Of a stretch of DNA of 59,005 bases, positions 2,073 through 45,437 are shown one piece after another. The notes under the pieces were generated by a model, which saw nothing but the letters and a program-made list of their open reading frames with translations, searched no databases and was not told the DNA's origin. The translations under genes and the position numbers were made by a program. Source of the stretch: Acidobacteriota bacterium (GTDB lineage: Bacteria; Acidobacteriota; Vicinamibacteria; Vicinamibacterales; CAVVIG01); assembly GCA_003222535.1 (NCBI GenBank), contig QHWJ01000346.1, positions 1 through 59,005 on the forward strand, given 5' to 3'. The stretch's first letter is position 1. Each line of letters begins with the position of its first letter.

Positions 2073-2657
2073 TCACAGGCGTTCTCCTCGCGCCCGGAGG
2101 CGCCGCGTCGCCCTGACGAGCTTGCGCCTGGCGCTCACGATGTACGCCTTCGCGCCGCTCGCGTTGTCCAGCTTCAAGAGGCGGGTAATCGCGTCGAGCG
2201 GCATGTCGTCCCCGTAGTGCAGCGTGAAGACCGTCCGCTCGACCGGATCGAGCGTGGTGGACAGGAAGTCCCGCAGCCGTTGTCCCTGCCAGCCGCGTTC
2301 GGCGAGCTCCTCGGGGCCGGCCTCGAGCGCCGCCACCTCCTCCAGCACCTCCTCCCTGTCCATCGGCGGCCCGCGACGCTTGATCCGGTTCAGCGATTCG
2401 TTCCGAGCGATTGCGTACAGCCAGGTGGAAAAGCGCGACGTCCCTCTGAACGAGCCGAGGTGCCGGTGGGCCTGGAGAAAGACGTCCTGCGCGAGGTCCG
2501 CCGCGGCGTCCCGGTCGCCCACGAACCGGAGGCACCAACGCGCCACACGCTCGTAGTGTCTCTCGAACAACTCGTTCACGATGACATCCCGTGAGCCGCC
2601 GGACTGTCTGGCATGCTCCGCGATCAGCTCCTCGTCCGACAGTGGCCGGGGGATCAT
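2073..2657 (-). CDS. ECF-type RNA polymerase sigma factor (copy 1)
   Basis: 194 residues, the usual ECF length. Region 2 is clear (ELFERHYERVARW, DLAQDVFLQAHRHL, RFSTWLYAIARNESLNRIK), and region 4 ends in DAITRLLKLDNASGAKAYIVSARRKLVRATRR. The frame is open further upstream, but the ATG at 2657 (MIPRPLSDEEL) is chosen because homology begins there and the paralogue at 5918 starts at the same point with the same length. From about residue 22 to the end it is nearly identical to that paralogue. No anti-sigma gene follows this copy: it converges on the ABC exporter. The small HTH gene 37 bp upstream is co-oriented and probably co-transcribed. Confidence 0.9.
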   Translation of the reverse strand: MIPRPLSDEELIAEHARQSGGSRDVIVNELFERHYERVARWCLRFVGDRDAAADLAQDVFLQAHRHLGSFRGTSRFSTWLYAIARNESLNRIKRRGPPMDREEVLEEVAALEAGPEELAERGWQGQRLRDFLSTTLDPVERTVFTLHYGDDMPLDAITRLLKLDNASGAKAYIVSARRKLVRATRRLRARGERL

Positions 2658-2694
2658 GGTCGTGTTTTCAGATGGTGGCCGGCTCGTGAGGGAA

Positions 2695-2895
2695 TCACGA
2701 CCGCGGCGCTGTCGTCGACCCAAGTTGCCGAGCAATCCACGACTCGAGATCGCTCCGCCTGAAGCGCCATTCATCCCGGTACCGCACCGCAGACAAGACG
2801 CACGTCAACGCGACACGCCGCAAGCGCGGATCGGCCAGGAGGCGATCCATGACCTCCTTACTGGTAATCAGATCGCTTTCTTCAGACACAGTCAT
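2695..2895 (-). CDS. Small helix-turn-helix (excisionase/MerR-like) DNA-binding protein
   Basis: 66 residues. The pattern SKEVMDRLLADPRL...YRDEWRFRRSDLESWIARQ is that of the winged-helix excisionase/MerR-type DNA-binding fold (helix-turn-helix, then a wing ending in a xFRxxDLxxWI helix). The ATG at 2895 is preceded by AGGGG at a suitable distance. The open frame continues upstream, but through a repeat element, so a longer start is unlikely. It sits 37 bp upstream of the ECF sigma gene on the same strand and may control it. No integrase or other phage gene lies nearby, so a regulatory rather than recombination role is inferred. Confidence 0.62.
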   Translation of the reverse strand: MTVSEESDLITSKEVMDRLLADPRLRRVALTCVLSAVRYRDEWRFRRSDLESWIARQLGSTTAPRS

Positions 2896-2965: not shown

Positions 2966-3124
2966 GCCTGGCTTAGCAGCCCGTGGTGAAAGTCTGGCTG
3001 CATTCGACGGGCGATGCATCCCCGCCCCACCCCAACGCGGCTGCCGCGTTGGGGACCCCGGGGCGCCTCGCCCGTCTCGGTGCGACGCCAGACTTTCACC
3101 ACGGGCTGCTCGGCGACGCCAGGC
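2966..3124. repeat. Nested inverted-repeat element (hairpin family, copy 1)
   Basis: Perfect 23-nt arms at 2975-2997 (begins AGCAGCCCGTGGTGAAAG) and 3088-3110. They are flanked by a looser outer pair, GCCTGGC 2966-2972 and GCCAGGC 3118-3124. The 90-nt centre holds a second perfect hairpin, CCCCAACGCGG (3030-3040) / CCGCGTTGGGG (3044-3054). The element fills most of the 473-bp gene-free stretch between the small HTH gene and the response regulator, which are divergent. Shorter members of the family lie at 5689-5750 and 9108-9148. No transposase is associated. Confidence 0.85.
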
Positions 3125-5688: not shown

Positions 5689-5750
5689 AGCAGTCCGTGG
5701 TGCAAGTCCATCGTCGCTCGAATGCAGATGGAGTTGCACCACGGGCTGCT
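5689..5750. repeat. Inverted-repeat hairpin (family copy 2)
   Basis: Arms at 5689-5710 and 5729-5750, 22 nt each with two mismatches, around an 18-nt loop. The sequence is of the same family as 2975-3110 (AGCAGYCCGTGGTGCAA...) but carries GTGCAA where the other copies have GTGAAA. The change is made on both arms, so base pairing is preserved. It lies in the divergent spacer between the kinase gene and the second sigma-factor gene. Confidence 0.78.
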
Positions 5751-5917
5751 AGCCTTTTCGTGTTCCGCCGATGAGAAGACTGGTGTCTCATCCCAACAGA
5801 AAAGACACAATGGTGCCCCCTTGCAGCCTGCACGTTCCTCGGTTAGCCCAGCTTCAGGAAGGGCCATTCGACAGACAGGACCCTGAGAGCCCCGTAGCGG
5901 CCGCTATACTCCCATTG

Positions 5918-6502
5918 ATGCGTCTCGGGGACCTGTCGGACCAGGAGTTGCTCGCGGAGTATGCCAAACGGTCCGGCAGCTTACGGGACGCCGTCGTGAA
6001 CGAGTTGTTCGAGAGACACTACGCGCGTGTGGCGCGTTGGTGCCTCCGGTTCGCGGGCGACCGGGACGCCGCGGCGGACCTCGCACAGGACGTCTTCCTC
6101 AAGGCCCATCGGCACCTCGGCTCGTTCAAAGGGGCGTCGCGCTTCTCCACCTGGCTGTACACGATCGTTCGAAACGAATCGCTGAACCGGATCAAAGGTG
6201 GCCAGCCGCCAACCGACAGCGAGGATGTGCTGGGGCAGATGGCGGCGCTCGGGGCCGGCCCCGAGGAGCTCGCCGCACGCGGCAGGCAGGGGCAACGGCT
6301 GCGCGACTTCCTGTCCACGACCCTCGATCGAGTCGAGCGCACGGTCTTCACGCTGCACTACGGGGACGACATGCCGCTCGATGCGATTACCCGGCTTTTG
6401 AAGCTTGACAACGCGAGCGGCGCGAAGGCGTACATCGTGAGCGCCAGGCGCAAGCTCGTCAGGGCGACGCGGCGCCTCAGGGCGCGAGGAGAAGAACTGT
6501 GA
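5918..6502 (+). CDS. ECF-type RNA polymerase sigma factor (copy 2)
   Basis: 194 residues, paralogue of the gene at 2073-2657 with the same length. Region 2: ELFERHYARVARWCLRF, DLAQDVFLKAHRHLG, RFSTWLYTIVRNESLNRIK. Region 4: LDAITRLLKLDNASGAKAYI. The ATG at 5918 is chosen by alignment with copy 1; the frame is open upstream to 5771 but without homology. The stop overlaps the start of the next gene by 4 bp (GTGA), the arrangement expected for a sigma/anti-sigma pair. Confidence 0.92.
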   Translation: MRLGDLSDQELLAEYAKRSGSLRDAVVNELFERHYARVARWCLRFAGDRDAAADLAQDVFLKAHRHLGSFKGASRFSTWLYTIVRNESLNRIKGGQPPTDSEDVLGQMAALGAGPEELAARGRQGQRLRDFLSTTLDRVERTVFTLHYGDDMPLDAITRLLKLDNASGAKAYIVSARRKLVRATRRLRARGEEL

Positions 6503-9101: not shown

Positions 9102-9148
9102 AGCAGCCGTGGTGAAAGTCTGGCTCAGTCCGCCAGACTTTCACCACG
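9102..9148. repeat. Inverted-repeat hairpin (family copy 3)
   Basis: Perfect 17-nt arms, 9108-9124 and 9132-9148 (CGTGGTGAAAGTCTGGC and its complement), around a 7-nt loop. The left side carries the family prefix AGCAGC. It lies in the 327-bp gene-free stretch between two convergent genes and could also end transcripts from either side, although no T-run follows. Confidence 0.82.
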
Positions 9149-9173
9149 CACACCTTATTCTTCTGCAGCCCTT

Positions 9174-9236
9174 GTAACGAAGCTTCGCCTCAAACCGCCG
9201 AGTGACGACGAGCGGTCATCCGCGAATCTTCGTTAC
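9174..9236. repeat. 63-bp repeat with palindromic ends (copy in spacer)
   Basis: The ends are inverted repeats, GTAACGAAGCTTCGC at 9174-9188 and CGCGAATCTTCGTTAC at 9221-9236. The interior (CTCAAACCGCCGAGTGA...) matches, on the opposite strand, the element at 14711-14774 that lies inside the ActE coding sequence. It sits 60 bp beyond the end of the outer-membrane-like gene. Confidence 0.8.
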
Positions 9237-9295
9237 CAGGCGGCCGTTGCGCGGCCGCTAAAACAGCTTCTAAAGCCTCACCTGAAAAAACTTGC

Positions 9296-34466: not shown

Positions 34467-34513
34467 CTCTCAACTCTCGGCCCTCTGCTCCGGTGAGCTC
34501 CGAGAGTTGAGAG
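34467..34513. terminator. Low-complexity inverted repeat between convergent genes
   Basis: Perfect 14-nt arms CTCTCAACTCTCGG (34467-34480) and CCGAGAGTTGAGAG (34500-34513) around a 19-nt loop. It lies between the convergent ends of the exopolysaccharide operon and the metallo-beta-lactamase gene, so it can act on both transcripts. The CTCAACTCT unit also forms the spacer at 45340-45437. Confidence 0.6.
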
Positions 34514-36029: not shown

Positions 36030-36272
36030 CGCTCTCCTTTCACCACGGGCCGTTAGCTCAGCCATGAATCTCGCCCGAGTTGCGACATTCTACAGGTGCG
36101 ATGAGCGTTTGTGGCGATCTGAAATGCGACTGTCCGTTCGCCGTGGCGGACCAACGCACCGTGACCTCATGCAAGGTTCTACGGCAGAGCGCGGAGATCG
36201 CTGGGAATATGCTGGTTTCCCGGCGGTCTCGGCGGTTCGTGTGCGTTTCTTCGGTTGAGGTGCCGGGGCCGC

Positions 36273-42060: not shown

Positions 42061-42189
42061 TTATTCACCATCTGGTCATCTGGTCATCTGGTGATCTGGT
42101 GATCTGGTAATTGGATTGCGCGATGGCGCGACAGCGCGACTGCAGGATTCAATTGACCAATTCAATTACCCGATTACCAGATTATCCAA
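42061..42189. repeat. Low-complexity spacer of ATCTGGT units with inverted end
   Basis: CATCTGGT is repeated about five times at 42067-42108, then roughly mirrored by CAATTACCCGATTACCAGATTATCC-type sequence near 42165-42190. It fills the gap between the two RND permease genes; the halves can pair imperfectly. Confidence 0.7.
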
Positions 42190-45100
42190 TTACCCGATTG
42201 TCTGTGCGGTCACCGGCCTGGTGACCGGAATCTTCCTGGTCTTGAACATGCCGGCCATGTACGTGTAGACGACCGGCGTCAGATACAGCGTGATCAGCTG
42301 CGAGACGACGAGACCGCCGACCACCGCGAGGCCGAGCGGACGCCTCGCCTCGCCGCCGGCGCCGTATCCGAGCGCGATCGGCGCCGACCCGAACAGCGCC
42401 GCCATCGTGGTCATCATGATCGGCCGGAAGCGGATGATGCAGCCCTCGTAGATCGCTTCGGACGGCGTCCTGCCGTGCCGGCGCTCGGCGTCGAGCGCGA
42501 AGTCGATCTGCATGATCGCGTTCTTCTTCACGATCCCAATCAGCATCACGAGCCCGACGAAGGAATAGATGTTCAGCTCGTTGCCGAACAGATAGAGCGT
42601 GACCAGCGCGCCGAGCCCGGCCGAGGGCAATCCCGACAGAATGGTGATCGGGTGGATGTAGCTTTCATACAGCGCGCCGAGGACGATGTAGACCACGCCG
42701 ATGGCGATGAACAGCAGCAGCCCGAGGTTCGTCATCGACTGCTGGAAGACTCGGGCTTGCCCTTCGAAGCTCGTCGAGATCGTCGGCGGCAGCAGGCGAT
42801 CCGCCACCTGCTTGACATGGGCGGTGGCCGTGCCGAGCGACACGCCCGGCTTGAGACCGAACGACACGGACACCGACGGCAGTTGACCGGAGTGGTTGAT
42901 CGATTGCGGGCCGACCGTCTCCTTGAAATTGATCACCGACTGGAGCGGCACGATCGATCCGTTCGGCGCCTTGAATGCGACTTTCTCCAGCGAGTCGACG
43001 TGTCCCTGGTACTTGGGATCGAGCTCGAGCAGCACACGGTACTGCGCCGTGTCGCCGTAGATCGTGGTCGCCCACTTCGGCCCGAGCGCGTCGTACAGCG
43101 CGTTCTGGACGTTCGTCGCGTTCAGGCCCACCATCGCCGCCTTGTCGCGATCGATGACGAGGTTGATGCGTGGGCTCTTCATCTCCATGTCCGTGGAGAG
43201 GTCCTGCACGTCGGTCACCTGGTCGGCGATCGCCTGTTCCAGCTTCGGCGCCCATTGGTAGAGCTCTTCGGTGTTCATGCTCTGCATCATGATGCTGAAG
43301 TTCTGGTTGCCCATGCGTCCGCCGATCTGCAGAGAGGGCGGCAGGCCGACGAACCCGCGGAAGCCGGGGAACCGGAGCAGCGCCGGGCGAAGCTGCTGCG
43401 CGATCTGCTGGGCCGTGAGGTCGCGCTGCGCGCGCGGCACGAGCTGCACCTGGATGCGCCCGTTGTTCGAGCCGCCGCCGCCGCCGGGGCCTCCGCCGCC
43501 GACGCTCGCCAGGAACGAGTCGACGTACGGGTTTCGGATGACGACGTCGGAGGTCTGCTGCGTCCACCTGGCCATGTCGTAGTACGACGTCCCCTGCGCC
43601 GCCTGCAGGTTCACGAACATCGAGTCGTTGTCCTGATCGGGAATGAACCCGGTCGGGATGATGTTGAACATGTGCACGGTCGCCGCGGCGACGGCTGCGA
43701 ACACGGCCAGCATGACGACGCGATGCCGCAGGACGGACGCGAGGCTCCGCTCGTAGCCGTGCAGCAGCCCGTCGAACGCCCGATCCATCAGTCCCGCAAA
43801 GCCCTTCTTGCTGTGGACCACGCGGAGAAAGCGGCTGCACAGCATCGGCGTCAGCGTGATCGACACGACGCCGGAAATCAGAATCGCCGTCGTAATCGTG
43901 ACCGCGAACTCGCGGAAGAGCCGGCCGAGAATCCCGCTCATGAACAGAATCGGGATGAACACCGCCCCGAGCGACGTGGTCATCGTCAGAATGGTGAAGC
44001 CGATCTCCCGCGAGCCCTTGAGCGAGGCCTCGAGCGGCCGTTCGCCGTTCTCCATGTGGCGCACGATGTTCTCGAGCATCACGATCGCGTCGTCGACCAC
44101 GAAGCCGATCGAGAGGATGAGCGCCATCATCGACAGGTTGTTCAGGCTGAAATGCAGAACCTGCATGACGGCGAAGGTGCCGAGGATCGAGAACGGCAGC
44201 GCGAGCGCCGGGATCATCGTGGCCGAGCCGTTGTGCAGGAAGAGGAAGATCACGCCCACGACGAGCACCAGCGTGATCAGCATCGTGACCTGGATGTCCT
44301 TGAACGCCTTGCGAATCGTCCGCGACCGATCCTGGCGCACCGTGAGATGCACCGAAGGCGGAATCTCGGACTCGAAGGACGGCAGCAGCGCGCGCACGGC
44401 GTCGGTGACCGCGATCGTGTTGCTGCCCGGCTGGCGCATGACCTGCAGCGTGATGGCGGTCTGCTTCAGCGGCGGGCCCGTCGGGCCGTTGGGCTTCGAA
44501 TAGAACCACGACCCGTTCATCACGTTCTCGATGCTGTCGACGACGTTCGCGACCTGATCGAGGCGGACCGGCGCGCCGCGCCGATAACTGACGATGATCG
44601 GGCGGAATGCCGCGGCGTTCATCAACTGGCCGGCCGCCTTGATGTTGTAGGTGGAGGCCGCGCCGAACAACTGGCCCGTCGGGAGATTGACGTTCCAGTT
44701 CTGCAGCGCCTGATCCACTTCGTTGAGGCCGATGTGCTGGGCGTGGAGCTTGTCAGGGTCGAGCTGCACGCGCACCGCGTACTTCGAGGCGCCCTGCACC
44801 TGCACCTGCGACACGCCGCTCACCATCGAAATACGCGGTGCGATCACCGTCTCCGCGTAATCGTCGAGCGCCGACAGCGTCAGCGTGTTGGACGTGAGGT
44901 TGAGCATCATGATCGGCTGCTCGTTCGGATTGTTCTTCCGGAACGAGGGCGCCGACGGCATGCCGGCCGGCAGCAGCGGCATGACCGCTGCAATGGCGGT
45001 CTGCACGTCCACGGTGGCGCTGTCGATGTCGCGATTGAGATCGAACTGCAACGTGATGTTGGCGTCGCCCGAGCCGCTCCGCGACGTCATGGAGTCGAGT

Positions 45101-45339: not shown

Positions 45340-45437
45340 ACCATCAAAGACTCAACTCTCAACTCTCAAGGCTCAACTCAAGTCTCAACTCTCAACTCTC
45401 AGGCGCGCATGAGACTTGAGACTCGAGACTTGAGATT
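45340..45437. repeat. Low-complexity spacer of CTCAACTCT / GAGACTTGAG units
   Basis: Tandem CAACTCTCAACTC-type units, followed by the complementary GAGACTTGAGACTCGAGACTTGAG. Perfect 11-bp pairing is possible between 45377-45387 and 45410-45420. Lies between the adaptor and first permease genes of the RND operon. Confidence 0.75.

Follow-up and report, generated by a model that had tools for sequence, protein, structure and literature searches.

A folded core shared by gene-less transposable elements with different terminal repeats in Acidobacteriota and other phyla

What places several related, strongly folded hairpins in the spacers of a single stretch of bacterial DNA, and what keeps their arms paired? 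The question is raised by a 59,005-nt stretch of an Acidobacteriota draft genome (the stretch is called the window below, and the genome, an 8.06-Mb draft in 450 contigs, G000:C64, the home genome), in which an earlier note had described a nested long-stem hairpin, two shorter relatives and a half-site. Our analysis shows that the hairpin family consists of high-copy non-autonomous transposable elements (MITEs), and that the elements of the window are ordinary degenerate MITEs.

Hairpin elements of the window

The following features were assigned in the window.

2977-3108, plus strand: copy 1, an A-family MITE of 132 bp, an internal derivative with its apical core swapped for a nested hairpin
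2977-2998, plus strand: copy 1 left terminal inverted repeat, 22 nt, perfect
2999-3024, plus strand: copy 1, conserved core, left side, stems and internal loops, TGCATTCGACGGGCGATGCATCCCCG (by alignment to full-length copies)
3030-3054, no strand assigned: nested 11-bp perfect hairpin, a repeat with 89 copies in the home genome, almost always within core elements
3059-3086, plus strand: copy 1, conserved core, right side, GGGGCGCCTCGCCCGTCTCGGTGCGACG... (by alignment to full-length copies)
3087-3108, minus strand: copy 1 right terminal inverted repeat, 22 nt, perfect
5691-5748, plus strand: copy 2, a 58-bp derivative with terminal repeats only, A2 subfamily, GTGCAACTCCATC (full-length A2 relatives L394, L373 and L035)
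9104-9148, plus strand: copy 3, a derivative with terminal repeats only, outer right end lost
36038-36054, plus strand: solo right-end remnant, TTTCACCACGGGCCG then TT(AG), in the leader immediately upstream of a minus-strand ORF

The nested hairpin of copy 1 is real: its perfect arms (CAGCCCGTGGTGAAAGTCTGGC) measure 22 nt, or the 23 nt reported earlier if the next pair is counted, and they flank the inner hairpin CCCCAACGCGG-CTG-CCGCGTTGGGG. The predicted fold has an energy of -111.1 kcal/mol (z -12.8), which no shuffle equals. Where full-length copies have the tip of the core, copy 1 has the nested hairpin instead, and the identical arrangement occurs at locus L017 (C252). When 30 loci of the nested hairpin were inspected in the home genome, 28 lay within core elements. 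At two other home-genome loci (L018 and L030), a second nested module (GGCGAGGTCTCGCCGACGTTCGCGG...GAACGAAGGCGGACGA) replaces part of the core.

The arms of copy 2 are 28 nt long and 89% complementary, and those of copy 3 are perfect over 17 nt, the right arm breaking off after CACCACG into CACACC. The pattern AGCAGCC-CGTGGTG-AA had been reported on both arms of the shorter copies; its AGCAGCC part does not hold for copy 3, which has lost its outer right end. Judged by sequence, copies 1-3 read as internal-deletion derivatives, copies 2 and 3 retaining the ends alone. The half-site is also genuine but starts one base earlier than had been given (36038-36050, not 36039-36051), and it is followed by CG-TTAG, as in a true right end. 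All three copies lie between the main predicted ORFs of a simple ORF caller, in agreement with their earlier placement in spacers. Altogether the window contains 9 matches to TTTCACCACGGGC at up to two mismatches against 1.5 expected, a number reached in none of 100 shuffles.

Most of the differences between copy 2 and copy 1 affect both arms (GTGCAA.TCCATC in place of GTGAAAGTCTGGC), although mismatches remain, and the earlier note read these differences as compensated changes that reveal selection for pairing. The arms are those of an entire subfamily of terminal repeats (L035, L394 and L377 are examples), so the changes amount to one subfamily difference; recognition of both ends by a transposase could also yield them. 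Pairing is indeed maintained in this family, but the evidence for this lies in the interiors of full-length copies, not in copy 2.

Several other features of the window were observed. Two paralogous genes for ECF-type sigma factors (2073-2774, minus strand, and 5771-6502, plus strand) are 90% identical over 570 bp, and each has an A-family element upstream, namely copies 1 and 2, which belong to differing subfamilies. A 19-nt inverted repeat (CCTTGTAACGAAGCTTCGC / GCGAATCTTCGTTACCAGG, 9170-9188 / 9222-9240) adjoins copy 3; the sequence CCCTTGTAACG, which resembles it, lies beside the L001 element, so the inverted repeat may represent another repeat family. Inverted or tandem-like repeats, with CTCAACTCTCAAC and ATCTGGTGATCTGGT abundant, occur at 45377-45434, 34467-34513 and 42086-42198, and similar runs of the CTTCAGACTTCAGA type border some MITEs (L007).

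Copy number, insertion and a partner insertion sequence

The family is dispersed, as had been proposed, and has many further copies: the terminal 17-mer, with up to two mismatches allowed, matches the home genome at 160 places (82+78), compared with 10 (5+5) for its reversed control. Complete copies run from CAGCCCGTGGTGAAAGTC to GACTTTCACCACGGGCTG and carry no transposase gene; most are 158 bp end to end, with an overall range of 45-373 bp. The 17-mer is present in 26 of 60 sampled relatives, and a scan of public genomes found the repeat in Acidobacteriota, Myxococcota, Planctomycetota, Syntrophobacter, Rokubacteria and others, the named records being for the most part Acidobacteriota, including many Vicinamibacteria.

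Insertion has left its trace in the flanks. Identical flanking 4-mers were found at 45 of 117 complete copies, compared with a mean of 21 (maximum 31 in 2000 shuffles) when right flanks were shuffled. A second count without CTAG, which is its own reverse complement, gave 18 versus 2.8 shuffled (maximum 9 of 2000). For family A, duplications of 3 or 5 bp showed no excess over shuffles. The 4-bp duplications include CTAG, CTAA, CTAT and CTGG; they are imperfect in most copies, including those of the window, where none is visible at any of the three. Two empty sites, paralogous rather than orthologous, confirm precise insertion: a copy within a family-D MITE (L094, duplication CTAT) and a copy within repeated sequence in a closed genome (L247, duplication CTGG). 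In both, removal of the element and one 4-mer leaves a gapless alignment over the junction. The family thus combines the properties of MITEs, being short and gene-less, with ends shared with an insertion sequence (IS), a target duplication of fixed length and many dispersed copies.

The partner IS was recognized by A ends that lie 1.46-1.53 kb apart and enclose a transposase of ~460 aa, in Nannocystis (L124, L152), in a Vicinamibacterales chromosome (L060) and elsewhere; the ends around the transposase ORFs are identical at L060, L124, L152, L156 and L132. Three such ISs occur in the closed genome G228, and clear CTAT/CTAT or CTAC/CTAC duplications flank two of them; L319 and L323 are further loci at which the ends are shared with an IS. 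G228 also carries core MITEs, so that IS and MITEs occur together in one closed relative genome. The transposase scores above the cut-off for DUF772 (64.8 bits) and DDE_Tnp_1 (31.1 bits), and in this domain pair, the length of ~1.5 kb and the short inverted repeats, the IS resembles the IS1182 and IS5 families. Its transposase comes nearest to the models of these two families but falls below the NCBIfam cut-offs for IS1182 (174.8 bits, cut-off 270) and IS5_4 (103.8 bits, cut-off 140), and the label IS1182/IS5-like is therefore approximate. IS1272, a member of the IS1182 family, reportedly replaces target inverted repeats without duplication (PMC5678879), whereas precise 4-bp duplications belong to the IS described here.

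In the home draft genome, the search for an intact IS yielded only a 45-aa relic of a related transposase. The home genome presumably once held the IS, and its transposase would have mobilized the MITEs in trans. A search with DUF772 and DDE_Tnp_1 in MITE-carrying genomes gave no ISs with matching ends for the C, D and F ends; these were possibly lost from the draft assemblies.

The earlier note had suggested a search for a TnpA-REP gene, and an origin as REP or REPIN sequences moved by a Y1 transposase (TnpA-REP, or RAYT) would fit dispersed palindromes in intergenic spacers. A single Y1 transposase was found in the home genome (C216), but its 3.3-kb locus has no matching end. The elements are much longer than REPs (158 bp, not 20-40 bp), and they have terminal repeats of the DDE type, 4-bp target duplications and a DDE-transposase IS as partner, so we consider a REP origin extremely improbable.

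We also considered that the hairpins are terminators or mRNA-stability structures that evolved gene by gene, as their strong GC-rich stems in spacers might indicate. However, sites with a stem and T-tract in the region are at chance level (4 versus 4.3), the target duplications point to insertion, and by a simple ORF caller the 30 home-genome copies inspected lie between tandem (17), divergent (6) and convergent (3) genes or within apparent ORFs (4), with no clear bias in this small sample. These results contradict an origin as terminators, which we consider very improbable. Gene context and chance-level terminators do not point to a regulatory role in the host, though one is possible; a secondary effect of the hairpins on transcription is possible.

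A conserved core inside different ends

The interior of full-length copies forms a hairpin of ~120 nt with asymmetric internal loops of conserved sequence; near the tip, an invariant CGTTGC stands opposite CGCCT-G. In an alignment of 41 full-length copies made by sequence, RNAalifold returned a continuous hairpin. Of the 25 pairs interior to the terminal repeats, 17 changed on both sides, and 93.8% of alignment cells pair. The covariation score of the core in this first set was 0.370, versus 0.132 when shuffled and 0.04-0.12 with slid partners (maximum 0.123), and there were 129 double-change cells versus 38 shuffled.

A second set comprised 23 cores from the two phyla to which the Kofleriaceae and Rariloculus records belong, which we take to be Myxococcota and Pseudomonadota, respectively. 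None had been used in model building, and all were aligned by sequence only. Double changes appeared in 20 of 24 pairs, and the covariation score reached 0.555 versus 0.06-0.12 with slid partners (maximum 0.120). These cores were retrieved with a structure-containing model, which favours paired sequences; this bias is unlikely to account for the covariation, because the effect is large and, for most of the first set, retrieval relied on the ends alone. Column entropy showed no overall difference between paired and unpaired core positions, and the loop argument therefore rests on specific invariant loop segments.

Among the genomes screened with a core-only model (R1), the core was present in 37 of 199 from Acidobacteriota, 29 of 140 from the Kofleriaceae phylum and 12 of 249 from the Rariloculus phylum. 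A plasmid search with two core versions gave no match. Family C, aligned alone, shows the same fold as the family A core. Across Acidobacteriota, Myxococcota and Pseudomonadota, the core is enclosed by terminal repeats of at least ten kinds, with duplications of 4 or 3 bp; they include the following non-A ends.

TTAG, then TGGCCCGCCGCGTAATTACG: home genome
CTAG, then TCCYCTGGAAMCGTGAT: G031 and G059
TTA, then GGGCCCTGGCCGGAATAAGG: G059, with 3-bp duplications of TNA type in several copies
CTAG, then TGTCGCGTCTCNGAAATC: G145 and G186
CTAG, then GAGCCTGACCCAAGACTC; CTAG, then TGTCCTGTCCCAGGAGTTCG; CTAG, then CAGCCCGACCCAAGACTC; and others: other phyla

The ends of G254 were read by eye; several automatic terminal-repeat alignments chose flanking palindromes. 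The presence of a deeply conserved and folded core in MITEs with many different ends is well supported. Since some of the ends look intermediate, it seems that ends diverged along with their transposases and were not swapped wholesale.

Arm-templated correction of quasi-palindromes could give paired changes without selection, and the covariation might then be a by-product of template switching or conversion between the arms, with no function of the core needed. This reading agrees with the fact that almost all changes go from one Watson-Crick pair to another with few intermediates. Correction should, however, erase the unmatched segments CGTTGC and CGCCT-G, which are invariant in the 23 sequences from other phyla, and the entire core persists within different ends. 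We consider arm correction a fairly unlikely explanation, and the core may have a role in transposition.

DNA-level structure and known systems

The same covariation and invariant loop segments would also be expected if the core were a transcribed structured RNA (a small RNA or an RNA-level regulator) spread by riding in MITEs. MITE-encoded small RNAs have been reported from Coxiella (PMC5896051).

An RNA acting from one strand normally tolerates many more G-U wobbles than we observed. The first set has 16 and 29 wobbles in about 900 cells, and the second set has 10 plus-only and 15 minus-only wobbles among 529 cells, with one invariant T-G pair left out. G-U pairs thus make up ~2-3% of cells and are no commoner on either strand, and their asymmetry is not decisive as a strand indicator. 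The rarity of G-T wobbles on both strands suggests that the core acts as a DNA-level rather than an RNA structure, an argument to be read with the GC-rich sequences in mind and with the fact that arm-templated correction also leaves Watson-Crick-only changes.

The core resembles Rfam structured RNAs in its covarying stem and conserved loops and differs in its wobble pattern, which speaks for DNA. No Rfam family matched the window at the gathering threshold; among ten loci searched at E<=1, the only match was a weak one to MIR840 in L054, off the element and far below threshold. The 30 copies of the small gene-context sample also show no clear bias of the kind a transcribed regulator might have. 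We therefore hold a transcribed RNA to be unlikely.

The reading that we favour with good confidence is that an IS1182/IS5-like DDE transposase acts in trans on the ends of these MITEs, which keep their core as a recognized folded DNA. The transposase would bind the terminal inverted repeats and insert the MITEs at YTAR-like sites, duplicating 4 bp. The core would adopt a cruciform or a single-stranded hairpin, to be recognized in a step of transposition or replication or by a DNA-binding protein of the host, and it would be retained while the terminal repeats diverge to track their transposases.

Bacterial MITEs such as QMITE1 and QMITE2 of Coxiella are likewise short and gene-less, with terminal inverted repeats, target duplications, a strong hairpin and high copy number (prokaryotic MITE review PMC10969869). 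Within the text available, this review and the Coxiella study (PMC5896051) report structured MITEs, and small RNAs made from MITEs, in families confined to few hosts, and they do not describe a core common to MITE families with different ends. The difference from those families is that the interior here is a covarying structure common to many ends in several phyla. We found no paper or Rfam family on a shared structured MITE core in a literature search whose coverage of subscription journals was thin.

The interiors of MITEs are usually regarded as leftovers. In the elements described here, the interior is kept as a covarying structure while the transposase-binding ends vary between families and phyla, which makes it testable whether gene-less transposons have any functional part beyond their ends. 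As a tentative proposal, somewhat short of an even bet, the core may be an undescribed folded DNA module used by MITEs of many transposase systems in at least three phyla, a general structural aid to copying or moving gene-less transposons. A covariance model of the core could label many unannotated repeats in soil bacteria.

Two minor observations concern the wider set of elements. A ends also occur around core-unlike interiors, which may or may not be diverged cores, in Polyangia (L101, L107, L063), Myxococcales (L064, L139) and Planctomycetales (L085), and some of these MITEs have nearly the same length (157-160 bp). In the closed genome G254, core matches seem to lie mostly on the plus strand at ~0.3-1.2 Mb and mostly on the minus strand at ~1.5-5.4 Mb.
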